Part shown: positions 3,795-26,006 of the stretch, one piece after another | How the letters are laid out: every line of letters begins with the position of its first letter | How positions within the stretch are numbered: the stretch's first letter is position 1 | IMG/VR virus record: IMGVR_UViG_3300025110_000055 | Coordinates: 1-34,160 of that record | DNA length: 34,160 bases | Source of the DNA: a virus | Reading direction: 5' to 3' (one strand) | The notes under the pieces: generated by a model | Database searches by the model: none | Told to the model about the DNA's origin: nothing | What the model saw: only the letters and a program-made list of their open reading frames with translations | Made by a program: the position numbers and the translations under genes

Positions 3795-4379
3795 TTAACT
3801 AAAGCTATGAGAAACAGTGCCATCACCAAAGACATGACCATTAAGAAGCCATATAGCATCTGTAATAGCTACACATCTAATATGACCGCCAATAAAACGA
3901 CCATCAGTATCTGCATCCATAGTTAATCTATAATCAGCAGCAGCAGGAACATTCCATCCAGCAGTGTCAATATCTTCATTAAGAGCTACTACGCTTCCTA
4001 ATTCATCTTTATCAAGCTGAAATACCATTCCTTGAAAAGTATCTGCACTAGAAGCACCTTGTAAAATAAAAGAACCTGTAAATGTAGTACCTATATGAAA
4101 TTCATAAAACAGTCCAGCAGCAGCAGCAGGTAAAGTTACTGTAATACCAGCAGCCCTATTCAAGCTAAAGATAGTTCCAGATTGTGCTGTAGTTGGAGTG
4201 TATGTTGCATCAGTAATGCTAGTAACAGGAAATAAATTGTTAAGTGTTCCTGTTGTACTAATATTACCACTTGTATCAACATCCAGATTAGTTGTAATTG
4301 CACCGGTTGTTGAGTTTTTAGTGATTTGTTCAAAACCACCTTCGGACCTAACGGGTCCATTAAAAGTTGAGTTTGCCAT
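3795..4379 (-). CDS. Putative virion structural protein, first gene after the capsid terminator
   Basis: This 194-aa protein starts MANSTFNGPVRSEGGFEQIT. The N-terminal part (residues 1-50) is rich in Thr, Asn, Gly and Ser. A beta-rich domain follows with ITVTLPAAAAGLFYEFHIGT, FQLDKDELGSVVALNED and GGHIRCVAITDAIWLLNG. The STFNGPVRSEGGF opening recurs in marine phage virion proteins as far as I recall. The ATG has a good GAGGAA ribosome site. It lies 115 bp beyond the capsid gene, past an intrinsic terminator, so it needs read-through or its own promoter. Fibre or decoration roles are possible. Confidence 0.55.
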   Translation of the reverse strand: MANSTFNGPVRSEGGFEQITKNSTTGAITTNLDVDTSGNISTTGTLNNLFPVTSITDATYTPTTAQSGTIFSLNRAAGITVTLPAAAAGLFYEFHIGTTFTGSFILQGASSADTFQGMVFQLDKDELGSVVALNEDIDTAGWNVPAAADYRLTMDADTDGRFIGGHIRCVAITDAIWLLNGHVFGDGTVSHSFS

Positions 4380-4398
4380 AATTTCCTCACGAAAATAA

Positions 4399-4440
4399 GT
4401 TCTACTGTCTTGGCTTGTCTGCTAGGTCAGTCTGTAGAAC
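4399..4440 (-). repeat. 7-bp inverted repeat in leader of the second structural group
   Basis: GTTCTAC at 4399-4405 pairs with GTAGAAC at 4434-4440 around a 28-nt interior. It lies between the terminator at 4463-4487 and the ribosome site of the gene starting at 4379, so it would be in the 5' leader of that transcript. It may fold as a hairpin or be an operator. A chance match is possible because the arms are short. Confidence 0.35.
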
Positions 4441-4462
4441 AATTAAAAATATCCTAGATACG

Positions 4463-4487
4463 AAAAAAGGGGAGCTATTGCTCCCCT
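4463..4487 (-). terminator. Intrinsic terminator after the major capsid gene
   Basis: On the minus strand a 7-bp GC-rich stem (GGGGAGC / GCTCCCC, bases 4469-4475 and 4480-4486) with a 4-nt loop, extendable by one A-T pair, is followed by six T's. This is a textbook Rho-independent terminator. It lies a few bases downstream of the capsid stop codon and divides the leftward structural genes into two transcription groups. Confidence 0.85.
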
Positions 4488-4493
4488 AAAAGT

Positions 4494-5432
4494 TTAGCTT
4501 GATCCGGGTGATCCGTAAATACCAAGAGGATCAGATACACCAAATGAGTATCTTTCTCTTGCTTTATATCTCACATTACCGGTATCAAAATCACCATCCA
4601 TAGAAGTTTCCATGCCTGTTCTATTGAAATGTTTCATTCCATTAGGAACATCAGTGATTATGAAGAAAGCATTAGTGTCGGTTAAATAATGATTAACCAT
4701 GTAACCTTCAGGTATAGCCCCGTTAGTTACGATAGCATTTACATCATTATCTGATGAGCCAACTCTAAACTGAGACTCTAAAAGTCTTGTCGCTGTAAAC
4801 TGCAATGCAGAAGGAACGATAAGTCTTCTAGGTCTAGCTGCAATCTTAAGACCTCTTTGATCTTTAAAAGCTGCAATTTCAATAATCGCATTTTCTAAAG
4901 AAGTTTCATTAAGGTCTGCTGCTGTGCTAGGTCTGTTAGAGTTTTTACCCCCATCCACTAATGGATGTCCATCACCGCCAGTTACACCATCACCATCTGC
5001 TGTAAACAAGTTTACTCCGTCTCCAGATTGGAAACTATTTGTAAACCCATTGTTAAGAGGATTTACAGCTTTCACTTGTTTAGTGTAAGCCATAGCTCTT
5101 GCTAGTGCTTTAGTGTATCTTGCAGATAAAGAATCATATAGATTATCTTCTATAGCTTCTTCTGTAATTGCAAAACCTAAAGCAATGGTTTCATGGTTAT
5201 ACCTTGCTGTAAAGCTCTCTTGTGCTGAATCATAAGTGATTGCAGAACCTTCGTCTTTAACAACCGCCTGACCAAATCCACTTAACTGAACTTCTTCTTC
5301 GAATGAACGATCTGAATTTTCAGTCTCATAGATCATGGTGTGCTCGTCTTCGTACTTTTCATACTCCATCCCAAACAAAGCGTTAAGTCCGGGTAGGAGT
5401 TCTTTTAACATTTGTGCTCTTGAAATAGCCAT
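4494..5432 (-). CDS. Major capsid protein
   Basis: This 312-aa protein builds the phage head shell. It starts MAISRAQMLKELLPGLNALF and contains EEEVQLSGFGQAVVKDEGSA, an ETIALGFAITEEAIEDNLYD segment near residue 85, SARYTKALARAMAYTKQVKA, a loop region rich in Gly and Asp (about 130-165), and PRRLIVPSALQFTATRLLES. The pattern matches capsid proteins I recall from marine podoviruses; an HK97 fold is expected. There is no prohead protease motif or long N-terminal delta domain, which fits the separate scaffold gene upstream. A strong AGGAG site precedes the ATG. The position after scaffold and decoration genes and before a terminator supports high expression. Confidence 0.85.
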   Translation of the reverse strand: MAISRAQMLKELLPGLNALFGMEYEKYEDEHTMIYETENSDRSFEEEVQLSGFGQAVVKDEGSAITYDSAQESFTARYNHETIALGFAITEEAIEDNLYDSLSARYTKALARAMAYTKQVKAVNPLNNGFTNSFQSGDGVNLFTADGDGVTGGDGHPLVDGGKNSNRPSTAADLNETSLENAIIEIAAFKDQRGLKIAARPRRLIVPSALQFTATRLLESQFRVGSSDNDVNAIVTNGAIPEGYMVNHYLTDTNAFFIITDVPNGMKHFNRTGMETSMDGDFDTGNVRYKARERYSFGVSDPLGIYGSPGSS

Positions 5433-7617: not shown

Positions 7618-8007
7618 TTAAATTACCTTTACTATTCCTCTTGGGTCTTGGACAACAGCTTCTACGCTGTCGTCATTGATTAAACGAAATTCTTTTCCGT
7701 GCACTTTAAATCTAGTGCCAGAATAAGAACGCATAATAATCCAATCGCCCTTTTCACAATAAGGACCATTTGGAAATCTGTTCTCATCTTTATAACAATC
7801 ATCACCCATTTCTAAAACGAATCCTACAATAGAACCAACTTCTTCGACTCTACGAGTTTCAGATGCCTTAATGATTCCACCTTTGGTAGCTTCTTCAATT
7901 TCAGGTAATGCGATTAGAATTTTGTACCCCTTCGGAATAGGGAGTTGTTTTGCTTTGTCTGTTGCTTCAACCTTTTTTGGTTGAATATCTTTTGCAGGTT
8001 TTGTCAT
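7618..8007 (-). CDS. GroES-like co-chaperonin
   Basis: This 129-aa protein shows the GroES (Cpn10) pattern: KGYKILIALPEIEEATKGGI where the first strand and mobile-loop region lie, GSIVGFVLEMGDD, CEKGDWIIMRSYSGT, and FKVHGKEFRLINDDSVEAVV matching the YxGT...I/L-G-E-E-Y...D-I-A-V ending of GroES. It carries an N-terminal lysine-rich extension and an insertion around residues 75-85. By analogy with T4 gp31 it could cap the host GroEL chamber so that capsid protein folds. Its position directly before scaffold and capsid genes supports this. GroEL binding is inferred. A strong AGGAG site precedes the ATG. Confidence 0.75.
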   Translation of the reverse strand: MTKPAKDIQPKKVEATDKAKQLPIPKGYKILIALPEIEEATKGGIIKASETRRVEEVGSIVGFVLEMGDDCYKDENRFPNGPYCEKGDWIIMRSYSGTRFKVHGKEFRLINDDSVEAVVQDPRGIVKVI

Positions 8008-10687: not shown

Positions 10688-10876
10688 CTAATGTAATATT
10701 TTATTATCATCTAATTCTTTATCTATAATATCTTGCAATATTTCTGTAAGTTCGCCACACACTTTTAAATTTTGTTCTTCTGCTATAAGAATTGCAGAAT
10801 CAAATGAATCAGCATGAATATTTGGTCCTTCATACTCTTTGTCATTATAAATAAAAGATGTAAGATAAATTTTCAT
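10688..10876 (-). CDS. Small phage protein between terminase and portal, unknown function
   Basis: This 62-aa protein begins MKIYLTSFIYNDKEYEGPNI and continues HADSFDSAILIAEEQNLKVC, a beta-hairpin then helix arrangement, ending in an acidic tail. The YxGPNIxADSFxxA pattern recurs in short phage proteins I have seen, without known function. The start shares one base with the terL stop (TAATG) and the portal start follows 8 nt after its stop, so the three genes form a tight unit. Confidence 0.6.
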   Translation of the reverse strand: MKIYLTSFIYNDKEYEGPNIHADSFDSAILIAEEQNLKVCGELTEILQDIIDKELDDNKILH

Positions 10877-12435
10877 TAATAATAATTTGCTTCTCTAGGG
10901 GGCAAGTCTTCCTCTGGTTCATCAGATTCTAAACCAATAAAACCACCTTGTCTAAATCTTATCAGTGCTTGTGTAGATGAATCTACTAAATCGTCATGGT
11001 CTCCAGATGGGAAAGAAGCAAATTCTTCAATCACTTCTTCTGCAAACTTCCTCTCTGGAGCCCACACGATTCCGGATGCAAATAAATCTGCAACCGCATT
11101 AACCCTAGCTATTTTATCGTTTCCACGACTAGGGGTGTATTCTGAAACTGGTATTCCCATTTGTCTTAGTTCAAAGATTAAAGGCATTCCTGCTGCTTTG
11201 GCTTCTACAATAAATGCTTCAGGTTGCCACTCTTGATACATTTCAAAGGCTCGTTTTTTTAAATCAGGAAACTCAAGCCGTTCTTTGTAAGCATCTAATA
11301 AAATTACTTGTGGTTGTGTAACTCCATGATCATCGGGTTGATAAAAAACACCCCATGTTGTACAAGCTGAAAAGTCAGAACGCTGTGTTTTTAAAAACGC
11401 AGTATCCCATGACTGTATAATAAAATCGCATTGTGGTGGATAATCTTGTTCCCAGACACGCCACCATTCTCTTTTAATGATAGCTGATTCTTCTGCGGTA
11501 GGGTTCTGCTGATATTGAGCAGACCATTTAGCTAAAGGCAGTTCTGCTCTTAGCTTTTCTAATTCTTTAATATCCCAAAACTCTTGCCACAAACTTCTAC
11601 CTGAGGGCAAGATAGCAGGGAACTCTATAACTTCCCATTCATCAGAACCATCTCTTTGTGCAGAGGCTTTAAGTATTTGTCCTGTTAAATCTCGTTTATG
11701 CCATCTTGTCATTACGATAATAATCGCACCACCCGGCTGTAAACGCTGTCTTGGTCCAGAGGTATAATACTCATAGACCTTATCAAAGACAGAGGGATCG
11801 TTGCTTTGTCCCTCTTGTTCAGAGTGTGGATCATCTATGATTAACAAGTCCGCACCTTTACCGGTTACAGCACCGCCCACACCAATCGCAAAGTATTCTC
11901 CGCCCTTATTGGTATTCCAGCGACCTGCTGCTTTAGAATCAGATTGTAATCCTACATCCGTAAAAACTTTCTTATAGTCTTCTGAGCCGACAAGGTTTCT
12001 AACCTTACGACCAAACCCCACAGCTAATTCTGCGGTGTGAGCAACCTGAATGATCTTCTTCTCAGGGAAACATCCTAGAAACCATGCAGGTAATAAATAA
12101 GATGCAAACTCAGACTTAGTATGACGAGGGGGCATATTAATAATTAAACGCTTTAACTTACCCTCTTTAACTCTATTGAAAGCATCAGACATAATCTTGT
12201 GGTGATGTCCTTCAATAAAAGCCACCCACATTTCTTTTACAAAAGACAGAAAGCTATCTTTACAACCTTCTTTAATCTTAGCCCTCTCGTACTCTGAGAG
12301 AAGCTCTAAGAGCATCTTTTGTTGTTCTATGGGTAATTGACTTAGTTTGCTTAAATCAAACAATGGTGGCACCTCATCTTCTGTTGAGAAATATACATGT
12401 GTGTAAGGAGTATGTATGACCAGACAAAGTGCCAC
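10876..12435 (-). CDS. terL: Terminase large subunit (ATPase and nuclease)
   Basis: This 519-aa protein drives DNA into the head and cuts it. The N-terminal motor shows LIINMPPRHTKSEFASYLLP (Walker A-like, with Thr where many terminases have Gly, near residues 101-109), IQVAHTAELAVGFGRKVRNL and Walker B DLLIIDDPHSE near 200. The RNase H-like nuclease shows IQSWDTAF (Asp344), FIVEAKAAGMPL (Glu411) and GDHDDLVDSSTQAL near 485. The start is a GTG at 12435 with an AGGA site 7 nt upstream. Later starts would remove conserved-looking N-terminal helices. Four palindromic operator-like sites lie just upstream. Confidence 0.9.
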   Translation of the reverse strand: MALCLVIHTPYTHVYFSTEDEVPPLFDLSKLSQLPIEQQKMLLELLSEYERAKIKEGCKDSFLSFVKEMWVAFIEGHHHKIMSDAFNRVKEGKLKRLIINMPPRHTKSEFASYLLPAWFLGCFPEKKIIQVAHTAELAVGFGRKVRNLVGSEDYKKVFTDVGLQSDSKAAGRWNTNKGGEYFAIGVGGAVTGKGADLLIIDDPHSEQEGQSNDPSVFDKVYEYYTSGPRQRLQPGGAIIIVMTRWHKRDLTGQILKASAQRDGSDEWEVIEFPAILPSGRSLWQEFWDIKELEKLRAELPLAKWSAQYQQNPTAEESAIIKREWWRVWEQDYPPQCDFIIQSWDTAFLKTQRSDFSACTTWGVFYQPDDHGVTQPQVILLDAYKERLEFPDLKKRAFEMYQEWQPEAFIVEAKAAGMPLIFELRQMGIPVSEYTPSRGNDKIARVNAVADLFASGIVWAPERKFAEEVIEEFASFPSGDHDDLVDSSTQALIRFRQGGFIGLESDEPEEDLPPREANYY

Positions 12436-12444
12436 AAACTTTTC

Positions 12445-12516
12445 CTAGTATTAAACTAGATAGTATTAAACTATATAAATTAAAACTTAGTTTTAAACTA
12501 GCTAGTATAATACTAG
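12445..12516 (-). promoter_or_regulatory. Four 15-bp palindromic operator-like sites upstream of terL
   Basis: Four sites share the form nTAGTnTnAnACTAn: 12445-12459 (CTAGTATTAAACTAG), 12460-12474 (ATAGTATTAAACTAT), 12487-12501 (TTAGTTTTAAACTAG) and 12502-12516 (CTAGTATAATACTAG). Sites 1-2 abut exactly, sites 3-4 abut exactly, and the pairs are 12 bp apart. They fill the gap between the LexA-like gene and terL. Paired dyads usually indicate cooperative repressor binding. The same motif recurs upstream of the primase gene. The binding protein is unknown. Confidence 0.7.
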
Positions 12517-12554: not shown

Positions 12555-12809
12555 TCACATCTTCACTTGTTCGTCAATACCTGAGTCAAATTTTTTAAAA
12601 GGACTTTTCCTTGTGCTCATCACAGTACGCCACTTATTAGGTTGCATAGTAACCCACCCATTATCTTCTAATCTTTTTAACATAGCGTGTACTGTGCTCT
12701 TAGATGATATACCTAGCGTATAAGCTAAAGCATCTAGTGATGGTCCACAATTAAATTCTTCCCAGTATGCTTCTATCGCTTCTAATAACTTTAATTGTTT
12801 GTTTGTCAT
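12555..12809 (-). CDS. LexA-like winged-helix DNA-binding protein without peptidase domain
   Basis: This 84-aa protein matches the N-terminal DNA-binding domain of LexA: TNKQLKLLEAIEAYWEEFNC, then GPSLDALAYTLGISSKSTVH (recognition helix) and AMLKRLEDNGWVTMQPNKWR (wing). LexA's serine/lysine self-cleavage domain is absent, so this protein cannot be inactivated by RecA-stimulated autocleavage. It lies between terS and terL, directly beside four palindromic sites that it may bind. Its own upstream region carries a LexA-type GTTC-N7-GTTC box. The ribosome site is weak. A transcriptional repressor is most likely, though the targets are inferred. Confidence 0.75.
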   Translation of the reverse strand: MTNKQLKLLEAIEAYWEEFNCGPSLDALAYTLGISSKSTVHAMLKRLEDNGWVTMQPNKWRTVMSTRKSPFKKFDSGIDEQVKM

Positions 12810-12840: not shown

Positions 12841-12855
12841 GAACATTATACGAAC
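12841..12855 (-). promoter_or_regulatory. Alphaproteobacterial LexA-type box over a TATAAT -10 element
   Basis: On the minus strand the sequence is GTTCGTATAATGTTC, an exact GTTC-N7-GTTC direct repeat, the published LexA (SOS) box of alphaproteobacteria. The seven spacer bases contain a perfect TATAAT hexamer, so binding would occlude a promoter. It lies 32 nt upstream of the LexA-like gene start. The -35 region (around TGGCTT) is weak. Host LexA, the phage LexA-like protein, or both could bind. Confidence 0.6.
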
Positions 12856-12977
12856 ATTCTAAAAAAAAAGCCATCTTTTAGTAGGTCGGAAAAGAAAAAA
12901 GGGGGTACCCCTATGAAAATTATGAAATTATATGTGCAAAATAGTATGTACCCTACAGTCAAACAAAAAATAATATT

Positions 12978-13013
12978 GGGGGGTTGGGGGGGAGTGGGGT
13001 TATATTAATGGGG
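12978..13013 (+). repeat. G-run cluster with G-quadruplex potential
   Basis: Runs of 6, 7, 4 and 4 G's (12978-12983, 12986-12992, 12996-12999, 13010-13013) are separated by 2, 3 and 10 nt, in an otherwise AT-rich genome. This fits an intramolecular quadruplex on the plus strand. It lies in the 229-bp gap 12810-13038 between terS and the LexA-like gene, which also contains the palindrome GGGGTACCCC (12902-12911). No convincing gene is present in the gap. A packaging-site, transcription-pausing or replication role is speculative. Confidence 0.6.
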
Positions 13014-13038: not shown

Positions 13039-13509
13039 TTAATTGCCAAACATTTGCTGTATCTTTTGTTCTAACTCAATCCTGATCTCATCACTCGTCT
13101 TATCATTGGTTATGCTTTCCACTCTCTCTGTGAATAGTGCCACCTCTGAAACCTTGCCTAGCAATTCCAAAGCCCTGATTCTCGCTGATTCGTTGTTGTT
13201 TGTATTAGTAGCCTCTGCTTGTAGCTGTTCCATGATGAACTGTCTTAGAGAGATAGCTGAGGTGACTGCATAATCGTTCTTACGCTTAATTCCTTGCTGT
13301 ATCCTTTGGGAGACCTTAGGGTTGCTCATTAACTTACTAGCCTCTGTCCATATGCTACTGTCTTTCATATTCTCTACGCTGTAAGCATCTCTGTATGATT
13401 CACTTGCAGTCTTACCTGAGATGACACCCTGACAAAACTTTTCCTGCTTAGGAGTAAGCCCTGATATGTTAGCTACTTTGTTCCCTGATTTATCCTTATC
13501 TTTACTCAT
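13039..13509 (-). CDS. terS: Terminase small subunit
   Basis: This 156-aa protein should recognise phage DNA and present it to the large subunit. It shows the Terminase_2-type N-terminal HTH pattern ISGLTPKQEKFCQGVISGKT followed by ASESYRDAYSVENMKDSSIW and TEASKLMSNPKVSQRIQQGI, then a helical oligomerisation region and a C-terminal acidic helix (DEIRIELEQKIQQMFGN). It is the first gene of the leftward block. A 16-bp palindrome lies 7 bp before the ATG where early rightward genes carry the same element. No strong Shine-Dalgarno is visible, so translation may be modest. Confidence 0.82.
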   Translation of the reverse strand: MSKDKDKSGNKVANISGLTPKQEKFCQGVISGKTASESYRDAYSVENMKDSSIWTEASKLMSNPKVSQRIQQGIKRKNDYAVTSAISLRQFIMEQLQAEATNTNNNESARIRALELLGKVSEVALFTERVESITNDKTSDEIRIELEQKIQQMFGN

Positions 13510-13516
13510 ATCTATG

Positions 13517-13532
13517 TATTAACGAATTAATA
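13517..13532 (-). promoter_or_regulatory. TATTAAC-type palindrome upstream of terS
   Basis: TATTAACGAATTAATA has arms TATTAA/TTAATA. In minus orientation it is followed by CATAGATATG, the same arrangement as the palindrome-leader-ATG units of the rightward genes at 15269, 16637, 18776 and 19650. It is probably an operator or promoter element shared by divergent early and packaging genes. Confidence 0.5.
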
Positions 13533-13656
13533 TTTAATTTTTTTTACTTGCCCTATGTTAGTGATTACTATCGTTTAATCCTTATTATCCGCTTACTTCG
13601 TAAGCAACACAAGTATTGGTGGCGAACATTGGTAGAAAATAATTAACATTTTTTAC

Positions 13657-13684
13657 TTGATATTTGTGGGGTAGTCTATATATT
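13657..13684 (+). promoter_or_regulatory. Rightward sigma70-like promoter
   Basis: TTGATA (13657-13662) and TATATT (13679-13684) are separated by 16 bp; both boxes match 5 of 6 consensus bases. Transcription would start near 13691, just at the edge of the less AT-rich structured region, and run into the early gene block. It is the best-matching promoter seen in the window. Confidence 0.55.
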
Positions 13685-14130
13685 AGGTCTTGTGTTTGGG
13701 GTTGTCGGCTCTTTTGCCCCCTCTCTAAACCGCCCATAGTGGGACTGCTTTTGTCCCCTAGAGTGAGGTTCGCAACGATACTTCACTATGTTGGTTGCCT
13801 AGAGCGATCAACGAGACTAGGGACAATACCGCAACGAGGTAAACTAGGAATCCTCACCACGAAAAATCCGGACTTCAAGTCTTTGTGCGTTTACCTAGTG
13901 TCCTGAGAGTGTTGGTCTTGGTGGCTCAATACTGCGATTGTTGGGTGAGTAGCGTTTCCCCCCTCGCAAGTTTTTAAAGCTGACTTGATTCCCTCTGAAC
14001 ACAAAACAGGGTGTGTCAACGATAAGACGATCTTTGATTGTCTTTGATGTGCTAAGGATTGCGGTGTAGCGTGGCTTGTCTCTAGGGGCTAACTTGTGGC
14101 GTGTGTAGTGATCTGATCCCATGTTGAATT
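13685..14130 (+). ncRNA. Candidate structured non-coding RNA / long structured leader
   Basis: About 440 bp without a convincing gene, visibly richer in G and C than its surroundings. Complementary segments on the plus strand include GGGAC/GTCCC (13741-13745, 13753-13757), AGTGAGG/CTTCACT (13762-13768, 13781-13787), a nested set GGACA/TGTCC (13821-13825, 13899-13903) enclosing GGTAAAC/GTTTACC (13838-13844, 13889-13895) enclosing CACGAAA/TTTGTG (13858-13864, 13882-13887) enclosing GACT/AGTC (13871-13874, 13878-13881), and an 8-bp hairpin at 14024-14044. A sigma70-like promoter points into it. No match to a known RNA class or tRNA is claimed. A minus-strand 75-codon ORF in its right half is an alternative reading. 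Confidence 0.4.
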
Positions 14131-14143
14131 GTCTTGATAAACA
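14127..14143 (+). repeat. Leader repeat, copy 1
   Basis: AATTGTCTTGATAAACA, followed by AAAGGAGTAA, precedes the gene starting at 14158. An identical 17-bp copy followed by the same ribosome site occurs at 14552-14568 before the next gene. It is probably a shared translation-leader or promoter element (TTGTCT or TTGATA could act as a -35). Confidence 0.5.
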
Positions 14144-15614: not shown

Positions 15615-16598
15615 ATGAAAGCAACACAGCTAGAGAAATCCTTAGCTAATCTCATTGCTATCAATCAACCTGCCTTTATTTGGGGCGGTGTTGGTATTGG
15701 TAAGTCTGAGATTGTGCATAAGGTAGCGGATTCGCTAGGCTTTGCGGTTCGTGATGTGAGGGTGGCTTTACTTGATCCTGTTGATCTGAGGGGCGTTCCC
15801 TCTGTTGAAAATGGGACTACTAAGTGGAATCCGCCTGTATTTTTACCAACAGAAGATGAACCCAAAACTCTTTTGTTTTTAGATGAATTACCGCATGGTA
15901 GCCCATCTGTTCAAAATGCTCTGTTCCAATTAATCAAGGACAGACAATTAGGTGAATACACTTTGCCTGAATCAACTGTCATTGTGAGTGCCGGTAATAG
16001 GCTACAAGATAGAGCAGGGGCGAACAGGGTTAATACTGCATTGGGTGATAGATTTATTCACCTTAACTTAGAGCCTTGTCCTGAGGAGTGGGTATCATGG
16101 GCTTTGGGTAGTGGTCGCATTATCCCTGAGGTTATTAACTACATTAGATACAGACCTGAGAATATCTTTGTGTTTGATACTAATGCACAAGTTAATACTA
16201 CCCCTCGTTCTTGGGAGTATGCCTCTAGGATACTTGATAATAATCCTGATGCTGACATAGAGCAGGAATTATTAGCAGGGACTATTGGTGAGGGTATTTC
16301 TGCTGAATTGGTTGGTTATCTTCGAACATGGAGAAAGCTACCATCAATGGAGACTATCCTGAAAAACCCTGAGAAGATTAATCTCGATTCTGATCCTGCG
16401 GTTATGTATGCGGTATGCGGTATTGTCGCTAGGAAAATGACTAAAGAAAACATTGGGAAGTTTGTAGATTTTCTAAAAACTTTACCTGATGAGTTTGCAG
16501 TATTGTGTATGAGTGATGCAACAACAATGAACCCTGATCTTAAAAAGACCAAAGCGTACATTGATTTTGATGTTGCATATCAAGACATAACATTATGA
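15615..16598 (+). CDS. MoxR-like AAA+ ATPase
   Basis: This 327-aa AAA+ ATPase has Walker A GGVGIGKSE (residues 24-32), a DVRVALLDPVDLRGVPSVEN segment typical of MoxR-type loops, Walker B TLLFLDELPHG (near 85-95), SVQNALFQLIKDRQLGEYTL, sensor 1 VIVSAGNR (near 122-129) and a likely arginine finger in ALGDRF. MoxR proteins work as chaperone-like remodelers with VWA-domain partners. Here a metallopeptidase-VWA gene lies two genes downstream in the same operon, an arrangement also known in cellular genomes. The target in the infected cell is unknown. It carries the palindrome-GGAGTAT leader. Confidence 0.82.
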   Translation: MKATQLEKSLANLIAINQPAFIWGGVGIGKSEIVHKVADSLGFAVRDVRVALLDPVDLRGVPSVENGTTKWNPPVFLPTEDEPKTLLFLDELPHGSPSVQNALFQLIKDRQLGEYTLPESTVIVSAGNRLQDRAGANRVNTALGDRFIHLNLEPCPEEWVSWALGSGRIIPEVINYIRYRPENIFVFDTNAQVNTTPRSWEYASRILDNNPDADIEQELLAGTIGEGISAELVGYLRTWRKLPSMETILKNPEKINLDSDPAVMYAVCGIVARKMTKENIGKFVDFLKTLPDEFAVLCMSDATTMNPDLKKTKAYIDFDVAYQDITL

Positions 16599-16624
16599 TC
16601 TATGGGGGCTTTTGCCCCCTAGAT
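16598..16624 (+). repeat. 11-bp GC hairpin after the AAA ATPase gene
   Basis: ATCTA, a bulged T, GGGGGC, TTTT loop, GCCCCC, TAGAT (16598-16624). This is one of the most stable stems in the window. It starts at the stop codon of the ATPase gene. The bases after it (ACCAACG) are not a U-tract. Confidence 0.65.
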
Positions 16625-16636
16625 ACCAACGATAAC

Positions 16637-16652
16637 TATTAACCAATTAATA
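16637..16652 (+). promoter_or_regulatory. TATTAAC-type palindrome before the 292-aa partner gene
   Basis: TATTAACCAATTAATA, with intact TATTAA/TTAATA arms, sits 22 nt before the ATG at 16675 and is followed by ATATAGGAGTATG. It is preceded by AACTA as in the copies at 15269, 18776 and 28885. Confidence 0.5.
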
Positions 16653-16674
16653 TATAAATATAGGAGTATGTTTT

Positions 16675-17553
16675 ATGGCTACTAAGCTAAATGAAAAAGC
16701 TATTCTGATCAAAGTCAATCTCAAAAAATGGGGTGGAACTAAGGTCGATAAAGGCTTATCTGAAGAAATTGCCGATAAGCATGGTGTTCTAGCTAAACAT
16801 TTTTCTGTGTCCAAAAAGCTAACGAACAGTCAAAACTTAAAAGAGATCAAAAAGATTGATGGTCTTATTAGGACTGACTGTATCTATAGCGGTGCAGGAT
16901 ACAGGGGTTTTTGTCATGCTTGGGATAATCAAGGTACATACCTTTTGCCTGTTGATGCAAAAGCGAAGTTTGAAAAAAGGTTCGCTGAGTATCGTGATGC
17001 AAGGGAATTGTATGTGAGGGACTTTGTTAAAGAGTATCCTGATATTATAGATGAGGCTAAGGATAATCTTGGTTCAACTTTTGATATATCAGACTTTCCC
17101 TCGCTTGATGATATTAAAGATTGTTTCTCATGCGAAGTGATCAAAAGCCCAATACCTAATACAGATGATATTAGAGTTAATCTATCTAAAGATGAGATAG
17201 ACGAACTCAAGTCTAATGCTCAACAAGAGCATGATGCTAAATTATCTGAGATCACCGGTGCGGTGGTTGATAAAGTGCAGGGTGTTTTAGGACACTTCTC
17301 TGAAAAGATTAAGAGTGGTGAAACATTTAGAGATTCAACGATTGATAAAGTTATTGATCTCTGTGATGTATTGCCTGATCTTAATATTGCAGGAGATTCT
17401 AAAATTCACAATGCACATCAAGAACTCATGGACATTTTTGTGGGTAATGATGTCAATGCTAATACCTTGAGAGAGGATAAAGATAAAGCTAATGAGATCG
17501 CAAGTAAGACAGATGAGATACTTGATGATCTAGGGGGGTGGCTCAATGACTAA
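16675..17553 (+). CDS. MoxR/VWA-module partner protein, unknown function
   Basis: This 292-aa protein lies between the MoxR-like ATPase and the metallopeptidase-VWA gene and overlaps the latter by 8 nt. It begins with AILIKVNLKKWGGTKVDKGL, has GLIRTDCIYSGAGYRGFCHA and DNQGTYLLPVDAKAKFEKRF, then a long, acidic, mainly helical region to the end. The conserved-looking N-terminal half with a Lys-Trp-Gly-Gly motif resembles unknown proteins found beside MoxR-VWA genes (perhaps DUF3150-like, recalled weakly). The helical part could bridge ATPase and VWA partner. No catalytic motif is evident. Confidence 0.6.
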   Translation: MATKLNEKAILIKVNLKKWGGTKVDKGLSEEIADKHGVLAKHFSVSKKLTNSQNLKEIKKIDGLIRTDCIYSGAGYRGFCHAWDNQGTYLLPVDAKAKFEKRFAEYRDARELYVRDFVKEYPDIIDEAKDNLGSTFDISDFPSLDDIKDCFSCEVIKSPIPNTDDIRVNLSKDEIDELKSNAQQEHDAKLSEITGAVVDKVQGVLGHFSEKIKSGETFRDSTIDKVIDLCDVLPDLNIAGDSKIHNAHQELMDIFVGNDVNANTLREDKDKANEIASKTDEILDDLGGWLND

Positions 17554-18721
17554 TAAGATAATGCCTGAAATGATTAAGGCTCGAACTGAATTAGTTTTGA
17601 AGTATCCTTTCTTTGGCAAACTTGCTCTAGGTCTTGAACTTGTTGAATCAGATAAATTTGACACTATGGCGACAGATGGACAACGCTTGTACTACAACAG
17701 GGAATGGGTAAAAACCATTACCCATCAAGAGAGGGTAGGAGTTATAGCCCATGAGGTACTTCATGTTGTTTCTAAACACCATCTCCGCAGGGGCAAAAGA
17801 GATGCCTACTATTGGAATGTGGCAGGAGATTATGTCATTAATGATATTCTGCTAGAAGATGGTTTCATCTTGCCTGAGGGTGGATTACATAATCCTGAAT
17901 ATGCAAGTATGCAAACTGAAAAAGTTTATGATCTTGTTTATCAAGAATCAAAAAACGATTCCGGTGATGATGCTAATGGTGGTGATGGTGATGGTGATGA
18001 TAGTGGTGATGGCAAAGCCCCATCTTGGGGTGAGGTCATAGATGCTGTCAATGATGATGGCGGTTCACTATCAGATGCGGACATTAAAGAACTTGAGAGA
18101 GAGATTAATGTTAGCGTTCTCCAAGCTGTTCAATCTGCTAAAGGTATAGGTGGCAAAAGTTCTGCTTTCCAAAAGATGATTGAATCAATTAAGCAGGATA
18201 AGGTTGATTGGGAAGATGTCTTAGCTAATCATATGTTAGATAATCTAACCCCATGCGATTACAACTTTAACAATCCTGATAGGAGATTTATCTATCAAGA
18301 TATGTATCTGCCTAGCGTTGAAAAAGAACCAAATCAAAACATAGCTATTGCTATTGATACTAGCGGTTCTATTTATGAGGACACTAAAGCTATGTTCTTA
18401 GATGCTATCAACAATATTATTACAGTAGGCAAGCCAAACAAGGTTAGTCTGATTTATTGTGATGATCATGTTCAAGAAGTTAAGACATTCTATAAGGGTG
18501 AAAAGATTACCTTAGATCACTTATGGGGTGGTTGTACTGACTATGAGCCTGTATTCAAATACATAGATAAAGAGTTAGACAATGATGTTTCTTACTTGGT
18601 TTATCTTACAGATGGGTATTGTTATTGCGATAGATTAGTAGAGCCTGACTATCCGGTGATATGGGCTACTACTGAAACATCTAAGTATTTTACTTTTGGG
18701 GATATAGTAGATGTCGAATGA
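17546..18721 (+). CDS. Metallopeptidase-VWA fusion (DUF2201-like), MoxR partner
   Basis: This 391-aa protein combines two domains. Residues 1-130 form a putative zinc peptidase: VGVIAHEVLHVVSKHHLRRG (HExxH at 69-73 with His78) and YYWNVAGDYVINDILLEDG, as in DUF2201 N-terminal domains. Residues 137-156 are a Gly/Asp-rich linker. Residues 263-391 form a VWA-like domain with the MIDAS motif AIAIDTSGSI (Asp271), GGCTDYEP near 328 and TDG at 355-357. All metal-binding positions look intact. With the MoxR-like ATPase it forms a plausible protein-remodelling or cleaving machine. Its role in infection is unknown. Confidence 0.8.
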   Translation: MTNKIMPEMIKARTELVLKYPFFGKLALGLELVESDKFDTMATDGQRLYYNREWVKTITHQERVGVIAHEVLHVVSKHHLRRGKRDAYYWNVAGDYVINDILLEDGFILPEGGLHNPEYASMQTEKVYDLVYQESKNDSGDDANGGDGDGDDSGDGKAPSWGEVIDAVNDDGGSLSDADIKELEREINVSVLQAVQSAKGIGGKSSAFQKMIESIKQDKVDWEDVLANHMLDNLTPCDYNFNNPDRRFIYQDMYLPSVEKEPNQNIAIAIDTSGSIYEDTKAMFLDAINNIITVGKPNKVSLIYCDDHVQEVKTFYKGEKITLDHLWGGCTDYEPVFKYIDKELDNDVSYLVYLTDGYCYCDRLVEPDYPVIWATTETSKYFTFGDIVDVE

Positions 18722-21405: not shown

Positions 21406-21874
21406 ACTTATCTAAGTCTGAATGATAAAGGGAATTGGAGACTACATTTAGCCCCAATTTTAAGAGGTGTATATCTGATTCCCTTTTGATTTTATTTTCC
21501 ACAATGACACCCATCAAGTGAGTGAATAGTGCCGAATCATGGTAAACAAACATTTTACTTACTTTCCTTAACAGCAACGATCTGAGAAGTTTATTACTAG
21601 AATTTTTCATATCGGTTTGCTTCCCTGAATAATTCAAATTCAAACCCCCCTGAAATATCCCTGACTTGACACACACATTTAAAACATATTCACCTGCTTG
21701 GTGTTGATGCTTATCTATTAACTCGTTAATAAATAAATCATCAATGATATGTTGAGTAATATTCCTTGCTCGTAAATACTTATTTCCTAAATCCTCTATG
21801 ACAAACTTATGTTTATCATGCAGGTATTTATTACCTAAGTCTGTAGATTTAAAAGTTCCAATCGTATTCTTCAA
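21359..21874 (-). CDS. Phage protein of unknown function downstream of primase
   Basis: I place the start at a TTG at 21874 with GAGG nearby; a longer frame begins at a GTG at 21907 inside the primase gene. That gives 171 aa. A near-duplicate DLGNKYL occurs twice, about 18 residues apart (STDLGNKYLHD and IEDLGNKYLRAR), with FINELIDKHQHQAGEYVLNV and a helical C-terminal half. It overlaps the primase end by 26 nt and the convergent RHH gene by 47 nt. Without it 443 bp would be empty. A regulatory role is possible; I recognise no family. Confidence 0.5.
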   Translation of the reverse strand: MKNTIGTFKSTDLGNKYLHDKHKFVIEDLGNKYLRARNITQHIIDDLFINELIDKHQHQAGEYVLNVCVKSGIFQGGLNLNYSGKQTDMKNSSNKLLRSLLLRKVSKMFVYHDSALFTHLMGVIVENKIKRESDIHLLKLGLNVVSNSLYHSDLDKSKDSCSLAIQSVVQA

Positions 21875-23603
21875 TTTTATTATCCTCTGTTGCCTCTGAA
21901 TATACACCTGTTGGGGGGTAGTAGTCTAGTTTCGTCACACCCTGTTTACCCACCCACTTAAACCTACACTTCCATGTATGTATCTCTACATCTGTTCCCT
22001 CTCCTCTATGAACAGTAAGCCCTACATCTGCTTTGGAGAACCATGATGCTGAACCTGATATAGAATATCCTGTAGGCGGATTGATCTTGCCATCTGCATT
22101 TGGATAGAGTTTATGAGGGTGAGCGACAAACCAAACATGACAGTCATGGGCTTTAGCAAAGCGTGTAATCTTGGTAAGCATCTGAGAAATACTATCTGTT
22201 TCACTAAATGATTTATCCATTTCTATATAGTTATATGGATCAATGACTATTCCCCTACAACCCATCTGTCTGACAGCACCTATGCTTTTTTCAATGATGC
22301 TATCCATAGTGGCAGGTTCGCCATCTAGGTAATCAATAAAGATAAAGTGTTCCTCAATAAACTTGAGTGCATTGTCTCTTTCATCTTCATTCATTCTTTT
22401 AGTAGCCCCTGTAAAGAATGGTTTGTCGATATACTTTTCAACCAATTTTGCAATGTGTAAATCCGGTGGATTCTCAAAAGAACAAACCGCAAACTTCCAA
22501 CCCTCATTCTTAGCAAGGTTCATCATAATCATATCTATAAACTCAGACTTACCTGAACTTGGTATGCCTGTCACAACTGACAACTGCCCCCCTGCAATCT
22601 TAAACAATTCATCTACATTAGAATATCCTGTTGACACACCCTGCATAAAACCCTTGTCGTATAAATCAATGACTGAATTTTCATAGTGGTTAGACTTATA
22701 CAATCCTGAAAGTGGATATGGCTCTGCATCAGCAATAACCTGTTGCAGTTTCTCGCACCCCCCTTCAATCAGACAATCATTAGCATCCTTGTATTCACTA
22801 GGGATAGAGGCAATCCACACTTTATTTTTTCCTATTCGTCTAGCTAATTCTTCTGTTAAAGACTTACCTGCATCATCATTATCACAGCATAAGACTATCT
22901 TCTTAGCCTTGTCCAACTTCTCACTTGCGTTCCAAACATACTGAAACTTTTTATCTTCACTAGGATCAATCTTGTTGTTGTTTACTTTCATCACCGCACC
23001 ATTAGGTACAGACACCGCCCCCTCGATTCCTGCCTCAGCAAGTGCTAGTGCATCAAACTCCCCCTCACAAATAACTATTAACTCGTTAATGTTTATCTTG
23101 TCTAATCCAAAGAATGTCCTAGCTGAACCCTCTTGAGTAAAGTTTTTTCCCTCTAATGTTCTCCATTTGACCGCATAGACCTTATCTTCTTTGTAATATG
23201 GAAACCCGACACCGGTAGCATTGCCAACTCCGTTGAACCCTCTACTATCAAAGTAAACTCCATATTTTTTAGCTGTATCCTCTGATATACCCCTATCTTT
23301 AAGGAATTTTATTTGATGTTTGTTATACACTACTCCGGAGTTAGGTGTTATCTCTTTTGCCACAGATATAGGTGTTGGCTCTGTTATCTTTTTTGTTTTT
23401 GTTGTTGTTGTTGTTTGGTTCATGTTTACTACTCCTGATAATTGACAATGCCAACATTGATATAAAATTTTATCGCTATCCCTTGTCAACGATAAAGTCT
23501 TTTGATTCTTTTTTTTCCGGTGTGGTGAACAAGCAGGACATTCAATCCTCTTGTTCTGTTGATCAGCAAGATATTCTGAATTTATTATGTGATCTAATTG
23601 CAT
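21849..23603 (-). CDS. Primase-helicase (T7 gp4-like)
   Basis: This 584-aa replication protein has an N-terminal zinc-binding unit (Cys22/25 and Cys50/53), a TOPRIM domain with VICEGEFDALALAEAG (Glu180) and CCDNDDAGK (Asp241, Asp243), and a DnaB/gp4-type helicase with Walker A GIPSSGKSE (346-354), Walker B RGIVIDPYNYIE (Asp455) and an HVWFVAHPHK loop near 490-498. It should prime lagging-strand synthesis and unwind DNA at the fork. It lies leftward within an otherwise rightward region. Its AAGGAG leader and upstream palindromes suggest separate control. No DNA polymerase is present in this window. Confidence 0.88.
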   Translation of the reverse strand: MQLDHIINSEYLADQQNKRIECPACSPHRKKKNQKTLSLTRDSDKILYQCWHCQLSGVVNMNQTTTTTKTKKITEPTPISVAKEITPNSGVVYNKHQIKFLKDRGISEDTAKKYGVYFDSRGFNGVGNATGVGFPYYKEDKVYAVKWRTLEGKNFTQEGSARTFFGLDKININELIVICEGEFDALALAEAGIEGAVSVPNGAVMKVNNNKIDPSEDKKFQYVWNASEKLDKAKKIVLCCDNDDAGKSLTEELARRIGKNKVWIASIPSEYKDANDCLIEGGCEKLQQVIADAEPYPLSGLYKSNHYENSVIDLYDKGFMQGVSTGYSNVDELFKIAGGQLSVVTGIPSSGKSEFIDMIMMNLAKNEGWKFAVCSFENPPDLHIAKLVEKYIDKPFFTGATKRMNEDERDNALKFIEEHFIFIDYLDGEPATMDSIIEKSIGAVRQMGCRGIVIDPYNYIEMDKSFSETDSISQMLTKITRFAKAHDCHVWFVAHPHKLYPNADGKINPPTGYSISGSASWFSKADVGLTVHRGEGTDVEIHTWKCRFKWVGKQGVTKLDYYPPTGVYSEATEDNKIEEYDWNF

Positions 23604-23623
23604 TTACATACTCCTTATATATA

Positions 23624-23677
23624 CTAGTATTAAACTAATACTAATACTAGTTATAAACTAGCCTAGTATTTAACTAG
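23624..23677 (-). promoter_or_regulatory. Three operator-like 15-bp palindromes upstream of the primase-helicase
   Basis: Sites with the same form as upstream of terL: 23624-23638 (CTAGTATTAAACTAA), 23647-23661 (CTAGTTATAAACTAG) and 23663-23677 (CTAGTATTTAACTAG), plus a half-site CTAATACTAG at 23641-23650. They lie between the primase start and the end of the next leftward gene. Recurrence at two distant leftward promoters argues for one shared regulator. Confidence 0.65.
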
Positions 23678-25167: not shown

Positions 25168-25381
25168 ACTTGAATCAAAAATAATTGGAATGTTAAAAAC
25201 ATTTGGAGACTATGGCATTGAGAACATAACTCTATCTTTAGATGAAAAAGAAAAACACATACTCATAGAAGATAGATCAAACCCATTTATTATTACCACA
25301 AAAAAATTGACACTAGATCAGTTTGTTTGTAGTGATGTAAAGATGTTAATTCAAATAGTAAGGAGTATAAAAAATGACTGA
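25160..25381 (+). CDS. Small phage protein between nuclease and ERF genes
   Basis: This 73-aa protein reads MNELESKIIGMLKTFGDYGI, then ENITLSLDEKEKHILIEDRS and TLDQFVCSDVKMLIQIVRSI. It looks like helix, beta-hairpin, helix. It overlaps the nuclease by 8 nt and the ERF gene by 8 nt, so all three are tightly coupled. I recognise no family. A helper role in recombination is inferred from position only. Confidence 0.55.
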   Translation: MNELESKIIGMLKTFGDYGIENITLSLDEKEKHILIEDRSNPFIITTKKLTLDQFVCSDVKMLIQIVRSIKND

Positions 25382-26006
25382 TATTAACGATAAACTTATT
25401 GGGGCTTTAATCAAAGCACAAAGCGAAATGACTTTTGCCTCAAAGACAGGGACTAACCCACACTTTAAGAGTGGCTATGCCCCTTTGGAAACTGTAATTG
25501 ATGCGGTTAAAAACCCTCTCAATGACAATGGCATTTTCTATTTGCAGAAAGTGTATCTTGCTGAGGGTGGACAATGCGTAGAGACTGAGTTTCATGGTCA
25601 TGGTGGAGTTATTAAAGCAGGGAGAGTGTATGTTCCTGCTGACAAACAAACACCTCAGGGATATGGGAGTGCCTTAACCTATGCGAAAAGGTATTCACTT
25701 ATAACTGCTTGTGGTTTACCTAGTGAGGATGATGATGGCAATAGTGCTGAATCTAATTACAAAGCTAAACCAAAAGCAAAACCTAAAGCTGAACCAAAAC
25801 AAAACAAGCAAGACGATAGTGAGGCTAATGTTTTGTATGAGGCTTTATCAATGGGAGTAAGCGGAAGTAGTAGCATGGAATCGCTAAAAGAAAATTGGAA
25901 AGCTAACCAAGATGCTATTAAAAAATTAGAGAACTCTAATTTAGATGTTTACAACAAGTTAATTAAACTAAAAGACGACAAGAAAAAGGAGTTAGAAAAT
26001 GTCTGA
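25374..26006 (+). CDS. erf: ERF-family single-strand annealing protein
   Basis: This 210-aa protein anneals single strands in phage recombination. The ERF core shows IGALIKAQSEMTFASKTGTN, HFKSGYAPLETVIDAVKNPL, NDNGIFYLQKVY, and the signature TPQGYGSALTYAKRYSLITA followed by CGLPSEDDDGNS. After residue 128 a Lys/Pro/Ala linker (KAKPKAKPKAEPK) leads to a C-terminal helical region (SMESLKENWKANQDAIKKLE) that may bind partners. It has an AAGGAG site 9 nt from the ATG and overlaps the SSB-like gene by 8 nt. The pairing with a RecB-like nuclease and SSB makes a complete recombination module. Confidence 0.85.
   Translation: MTDINDKLIGALIKAQSEMTFASKTGTNPHFKSGYAPLETVIDAVKNPLNDNGIFYLQKVYLAEGGQCVETEFHGHGGVIKAGRVYVPADKQTPQGYGSALTYAKRYSLITACGLPSEDDDGNSAESNYKAKPKAKPKAEPKQNKQDDSEANVLYEALSMGVSGSSSMESLKENWKANQDAIKKLENSNLDVYNKLIKLKDDKKKELENV

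Follow-up and report, generated by a model that had tools for sequence, protein, structure and literature searches.

The window analysed here, 34,160 bases long, is a virus record from IMG/VR. On its minus strand the genes run in the order terminase small subunit (terS, 13039-13509), an 84-residue LexA-like gene (12555-12809), terminase large subunit (terL, 10876-12435) and head genes that include portal and major head protein, in agreement with the original prediction, which had placed the LexA-like gene between terS and terL. The first ~25 residues of TerL are not conserved and its true start may lie further in. No lysogeny gene was seen in the window. A GroES-like (Cpn10) gene lies at 7618-8007 and an ERF-family recombination gene at 25374-26006; on the plus strand, genes for an AAA ATPase, a DUF3150-like protein (below cut-off) and a DUF2201 metallopeptidase/VWA protein stand in a row at 15615-18721. 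About 600 bases upstream of terS (13520-14140) are highly conserved in relatives, with only a 75-residue ORF predicted in part of them. This stretch matched no Rfam family, the fold of one 361-base part was not unusual (z -0.82), and an Rfam search of the whole window gave no match.

The 84-residue ORF matches the Pfam LexA DNA-binding domain (PF01726; E 4.8e-10, 39.5 bits, cut-off 23.7), and the Pfam search found no Peptidase_S24 match in it; a SAR11 LexA used as control has both domains. The gene had been described as a LexA DNA-binding-domain homologue without the self-cleavage domain, and this description holds. AlphaFold2 predicts a winged helix with a mean pLDDT of 73 and a tail disordered from residue 65, and the best PDB matches of this model are LexA. 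Identity with SAR11 LexA is 29% over 63 residues, and the recognition helices, SSKSTVH in the phage protein and SKSGIH in SAR11 LexA, have S-K-S-x-[VI]-H in common. Of the two parts of a LexA repressor, the protein has the N-terminal winged-helix domain and lacks the C-terminal S24 domain for self-cleavage and dimerisation. It answers to the description of a truncated LexA of the type of gp6 in Bacillus phage GIL01, a phage-encoded DNA-binding domain alone, with LexA boxes (by motif) in promoters.

Upstream of this gene, GTTCNNNNNNNGTTC is present just once in exact form across the window (12841-12855, minus strand, where it reads GTTCGTATAATGTTC). A -10 hexamer, TATAAT, is read within it (12845-12850, minus strand), and the ATG of the 84-residue ORF lies 31 bases downstream of the box end. 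The exact box with its internal TATAAT had been predicted at this place. GTTC-N7-GTTC is printed as the alphaproteobacterial LexA motif in the portions of PMC8565304 and PMC12700426 consulted, which bears out its assignment to that family of sites, as do the SAR11 sites described below. No conserved -35 was seen by eye in aligned 80-base stretches from the closest relatives, and a promoter-pair listing for the window has no entry at the box. The window's own copy of the repeat extends to 9 bp (AATGTTCGT twice), more than the host motif requires, and its final two bases are not conserved among relatives. Two other candidates were rejected. The near-box TTTCTACCAATGTTC (13624-13638, minus strand, ~115 bases before terS) has the second-best half-site score in the window, 14.2, and was set aside because its first GTTC is found in no aligned relative and its spacer is variable. 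A GGGTC-N5-GACCC palindrome just past the box is not conserved in relatives and was rejected as an operator. Upstream of the box, at 12978-12999, the plus strand has a run of G tracts, seen as C tracts when the coding strand is read, which persist as C-rich runs in both groups of relatives described below.

In a first scan of 11 related loci, the box was present in all ten that had a gene start. A wider alignment (A3) covered 63 loci, of which 60 were used, the three lacking a gene start being left out, and these form two groups divided by one split on the tree. Group A comprises 34 loci with the 84-residue protein and the helix SSKST. All 34 carry the exact 15-mer, at -45 to -49 from the ATG save in one locus (L345, -164), and their proteins are 67-100% identical, differing by up to 33%. 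The 80-base alignment took 33 of the 34 sites (L358 was too short) and contained 22 distinct stretches, in which 18 contiguous columns (AATGTTC-GTATAAT-GTTC, AATGTTCGTATAATGTTC, 12841-12858 on the minus strand) are invariant. In the flanks of this footprint 4 of 62 columns are invariant, with a mean identity of 62% and a lowest of 31%. In L345, which shares a contig with L005, the box and the LexA-like gene are separated by a small inserted ORF, and the box-bearing promoter therefore heads a two-gene unit there. The 18-base footprint was also seen in five viral contigs outside the clade (L415, L404, L407, L412 and L417). In L415 (60% GC; 3830-4640) it has an XRE-type regulator gene on one side and an Arc-like gene on the other, and the matches of this contig include Mesorhizobium, Sinorhizobium and Rhizobium phage records.

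Group B comprises 26 loci whose proteins, of 130-156 residues, have the same domain with a charged tail and the helix SSRST; Peptidase_S24 was absent from the three longer group B proteins tested. A search of related phages for the box had been proposed as a check, with absence in close relatives as the refuting result. The box was found in every close relative (those with the 84-residue form), so that the proposal stood up to this check, and was missing at the homologous promoter of group B, where none of the 26 loci has the strict box in the 108-250 bases upstream that were read. Most group B loci retain TTCGTATAATG at this promoter, with half-sites in 11-bp phase of the form TTTC-N7-GTAT-N7-GTTC or TTTC-N7-GTTT-N7-GTTA. 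A strict GAAC-N7-GAAC, with three spacers, was found in the gap between terS and the LexA-like gene in 16 of 16 testable group B loci, the other ten of the 26 holding only 108-358 bases upstream. It lies 315-401 bases upstream of the LexA-like gene within a conserved 22-base stretch, GAACA...ATTGAACGTTCAAT, and does not overlap that gene's promoter. The strict boxes stand at different sites in the two groups, and a LexA-type repeat has thus been kept in the same gap in both. The group B strict box scores 9.2 on the SAR11 half-site matrix described below, which counts against reading it as a SAR11-type site. A recurrent second GTTCTTAGATTGTTC-like copy, of the type GTTCTTAG..TTGTTC, was noticed in G078-G080, G088, G091 and G092 of group B, ~1 kb from the terS-side box and probably in the 5' part of terL.

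More distant relatives lack the gene. Among 42 loci with TerL 58-64% identical, none has a LexA-like gene in the 122-1500 bases upstream that were examined, and one has the box, far upstream. This survey used 68 of 80 loci, most of those dropped having little upstream sequence; of the 26 loci whose TerL is at least 78% identical, eight have no more than 278 bases upstream, too few to tell whether the gene is there. The nearest TerL sequences are those of 023Pt_psg01, HTVC027P, DSL-LC04 and HTVC023P (54-57% identical). These four phages, cultured or sequenced, are without a LexA-like gene, and no box was found in them except one unplaced copy in HTVC027P. The predicted alphaproteobacterial host is likely, and SAR11, which the nearest cultured pelagiphages infect, is the likely host group of this uncultivated phage. 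The portal, however, is equally close to Planktothrix/Synechococcus phages and to pelagiphages, and the best primase match is the cyanophage group, so that these two proteins resemble cyanophage-type records at least as much as pelagiphages.

SAR11 genomes, located by a 16S pattern, were examined for their own LexA sites. A LexA-domain match was present in 49 of 58 genomes sampled from SAR11's order, with S24 present in the one LexA tested. GTTC-N7-GTTC precedes lexA in 36 of 36 parsed loci (37 were given; L243 was left out) and umuD in 7 of 7 (L203-L209, L156-L164 and L234-L261 cover lexA, umuD and recA). The strict box was absent before recA in 7 of 7, though PMC12753301 reports, in the text available, recA induction. 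Across the 58 genomes the motif is not enriched, at 8-23 copies each, mostly below the reversed pattern. The half-site consensus of the SAR11 lexA and umuD sites is AATGTTCT, with which the phage half-sites agree at 7 of 8 consensus positions. The base after the first GTTC is T in 44 of 44 SAR11 sites and G in the phage, the first half-site being AATGTTCG in every group A locus; after the second GTTC it is T in 42 SAR11 sites, and in the 34 group A loci G in 10, T in 22 and A in two.

Scored by a 23-bp SAR11 matrix in which spacer and flanks also count, the phage site reaches 0.65 bits, and the best chance match was higher in 100 of 100 random sequences. On a half-site matrix, chosen after the 23-bp result was seen, the window box is the best pair at 11-bp spacing, with 17.2 bits; 8 of 200 random sequences did as well. 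SAR11 host sites span 14.1-24.6 bits on this matrix, and the GTTCT-ending version found in relatives reaches 20.9 bits, equalled by none of 200 random sequences. The commonest SAR11 lexA site (20 bases) was searched for in viral contigs and not found. Going by these scores, we read the group A box as a good, imperfect SAR11-type site or as a site for another alphaproteobacterium. According to PMC2864753, SAR11 lexA, recA and mucA group in a cluster associated with late iron stress, and PMC12753301 reports that infection by HTVC027P, a distant relative of the window phage, raises host recA, lexA, umuD and umuC in SAR11; both statements are limited to the portions of these papers at hand.

A second type of element, the dyad TAGT-N5-ACTA, is clustered at two places in the window. 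Four copies lie between the LexA-like gene and terL (12446-12515; starts at 12446, 12461, 12488 and 12503), and three lie just upstream of the primase-helicase gene (21849-23603), at 23625-23676. Random sequences had a mean of 1.0 dyads and at most two within 80 bases (500 trials). Both clusters recur in two relatives. Dyads were found in all 15 LexA-like-bearing records tested (1-10 each); in 13 relatives lacking the gene the count is 0-3 per record, with no clustering. Strict dyads beside terL are absent in 11 group B loci, among them G078, G079 and G080, which have a dyad pair elsewhere in the record. Since the LexA-like protein is the sole regulator recognised in the window, it is the prime candidate for the reader of these dyads. 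The co-occurrence of gene and dyads is one in which group membership and dyads have a common history.

The interpretation first offered for this locus is thus partly supported: the motif, its conservation and the missing protease speak for it, and the loss of the strict box at the group B promoter, the divided verdict of the two SAR11 matrices and the cyanophage-like portal and primase hold it back. Our preferred reading, in which our confidence is evenly poised, is that the box is a LexA-family operator lying over the -10 of the promoter for a protease-less phage LexA regulator, and that it is most likely gated by host LexA. Counting against this reading are the low score on the 23-bp matrix, the missing box at the group B promoter, the four cultured or sequenced relatives without the gene, SAR11 recA without a strict box, the lack of enrichment of the motif in SAR11 genomes, and the 11 group B loci with no strict dyads beside terL. 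Candidate readers of the box are host LexA, the phage protein, or both. A bare GTTC-N7-GTTC is expected 0.55 times per window by chance and at least one copy arose in 41 of 100 shuffles, so the presence of the motif alone is not significant, as a functionless chance match would have it. The box is more than chance because it is conserved in 34 of 34 loci with the 18-base block invariant, and given the 22 distinct 80-mers this conservation in practice refutes an accidental origin, to which we attach almost no weight. The block could also be conserved as a strong promoter core only, its GTTC repeats being incidental. The TATAAT within it is indeed kept in most of group B, where the GTTC repeats are not; against this, AATGTTC and GTTC are kept around the -10 and no -35 region is, and such sequences are needless for a bare promoter, making this account unlikely.

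The more serious competitor is that the box is the operator of the phage LexA-like protein only, in a negative autoregulation in which host LexA is uninvolved and the likeness to an SOS box was inherited with the DNA-binding domain from a LexA that read GTTC. This explanation is as simple as gating by host LexA, and we regard it as a real possibility, though the less probable of the two. Gene and site are linked, the site accompanying the 84-residue form in 34 of 34 loci and the gene being found in 0 of 42 distant relatives. The operator changes with the protein: the helix SSKST goes with GTTC-N7-GTTC and SSRST with other half-sites. The 9-bp repeat of the window likewise exceeds the host motif, its last two bases not being kept in relatives. 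Yet the change of helix and operator counts as one event because it occurred once on the tree. The strict box of group B lies off its own gene's promoter, and the half-sites fit the SAR11 consensus in 7 of its 8 positions, which also tells against a purely phage-specific operator.

Under gating by host LexA, we propose the following scheme. In the undamaged cell, host LexA most likely occupies the box. Infection or damage would activate RecA, and host LexA would be removed from the box. The uncleavable phage protein would then accumulate and may bind the same box as an autoregulator. It would act, whether by repression or by activation, on other, later promoters, for which the TAGT-N5-ACTA dyads preceding terL and the primase-helicase gene offer the most plausible route. 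The scheme would resemble that of GIL01, in which host LexA is paired with gp6, a truncated homologue of LexA. That the box is kept almost unchanged before a shortened LexA gene, next to the packaging genes, suggests that a probably marine, uncultivated phage family reads the DNA-damage state of its host. A bolder version, which we hold as doubtful, has one operator serve two LexA proteins: on the promoter of the uncleavable mimic made by an abundant marine phage, host LexA would serve to gauge damage, and the mimic, reading the same box, would take over the promoter and might silence host SOS genes such as lexA and umuDC while RecA, induced by infection, destroys host LexA. If so, the phage would make a damage-triggered lock on the host SOS response, with the timing of late genes linked to it.

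Should either protein bind the box, an apparently non-temperate, probably marine phage would make a regulator depend on how its host responds to DNA damage, the truncated LexA being the downstream actor. The combination of LexA with a truncated LexA, known from a tectivirus of Gram-positive bacteria, would then also seem to have arisen, or spread, more broadly. The 18-base footprint and the single change in group B offer a sharp, cheap handle on operator-protein co-evolution.

The literature found on pelagiphages and LexA, as far as its available text goes, contains no description of such a LexA-type switch, and a search joining prophage, LexA, SOS box and phage promoter yielded no publication. 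The phages nearest by TerL, of HTVC023P type (PMC9599517 and PMC12753301, in the parts available), share a GroES-like gene with the window phage; the portion of PMC9599517 consulted lists GroES in the HTVC023P-type core and does not mention LexA. The four records of this type that were compared lack a LexA-like gene, whereas the window phage has one. Alphaproteobacterial phages are also described, in the accessible part of PMC9437464, as carrying CtrA sites, through which a host regulator likewise sets the timing of lytic genes. That case concerns a different host regulator, and the comparison involves no phage-encoded homologue; the same source reviews phages that exploit LexA.

The alphaproteobacterial LexA regulon, as far as it is set out in the sources seen, has the same direct repeat, as a single box per promoter that overlaps a promoter element, and in SAR11 the repeat is on lexA and umuD. 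The present box differs from this regulon in being phage-borne, in standing before a protease-less homologue and in having G, not T, after the first GTTC. On the coding strand the phage site reads GTTC..GTTC, whereas those of SAR11 lexA and umuD read GAAC..GAAC. The nearest known case is GIL01, for which we draw on the available portion of PMC6182141. Its system includes host LexA, which keeps phage promoters repressed, gp7, and gp6, which turns on the late promoter from its own palindrome. Like the present phage, GIL01 joins a phage-encoded truncated LexA (DNA-binding domain only) with host LexA boxes, the likeness being drawn from the description of gp6. GIL01 is a temperate tectivirus of Gram-positive bacteria with palindromic LexA boxes, whereas the box of the window phage is a direct repeat. 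In GIL01, gp6 is expressed from P1 and exerts its effect at P3, whereas here the box sits on the promoter of the truncated LexA gene itself, next to the terminase genes. The own palindromic operator of gp6 at the late promoter finds its possible counterpart in the TAGT-N5-ACTA dyads before terL and the primase gene, for which the LexA-like protein is the candidate reader.
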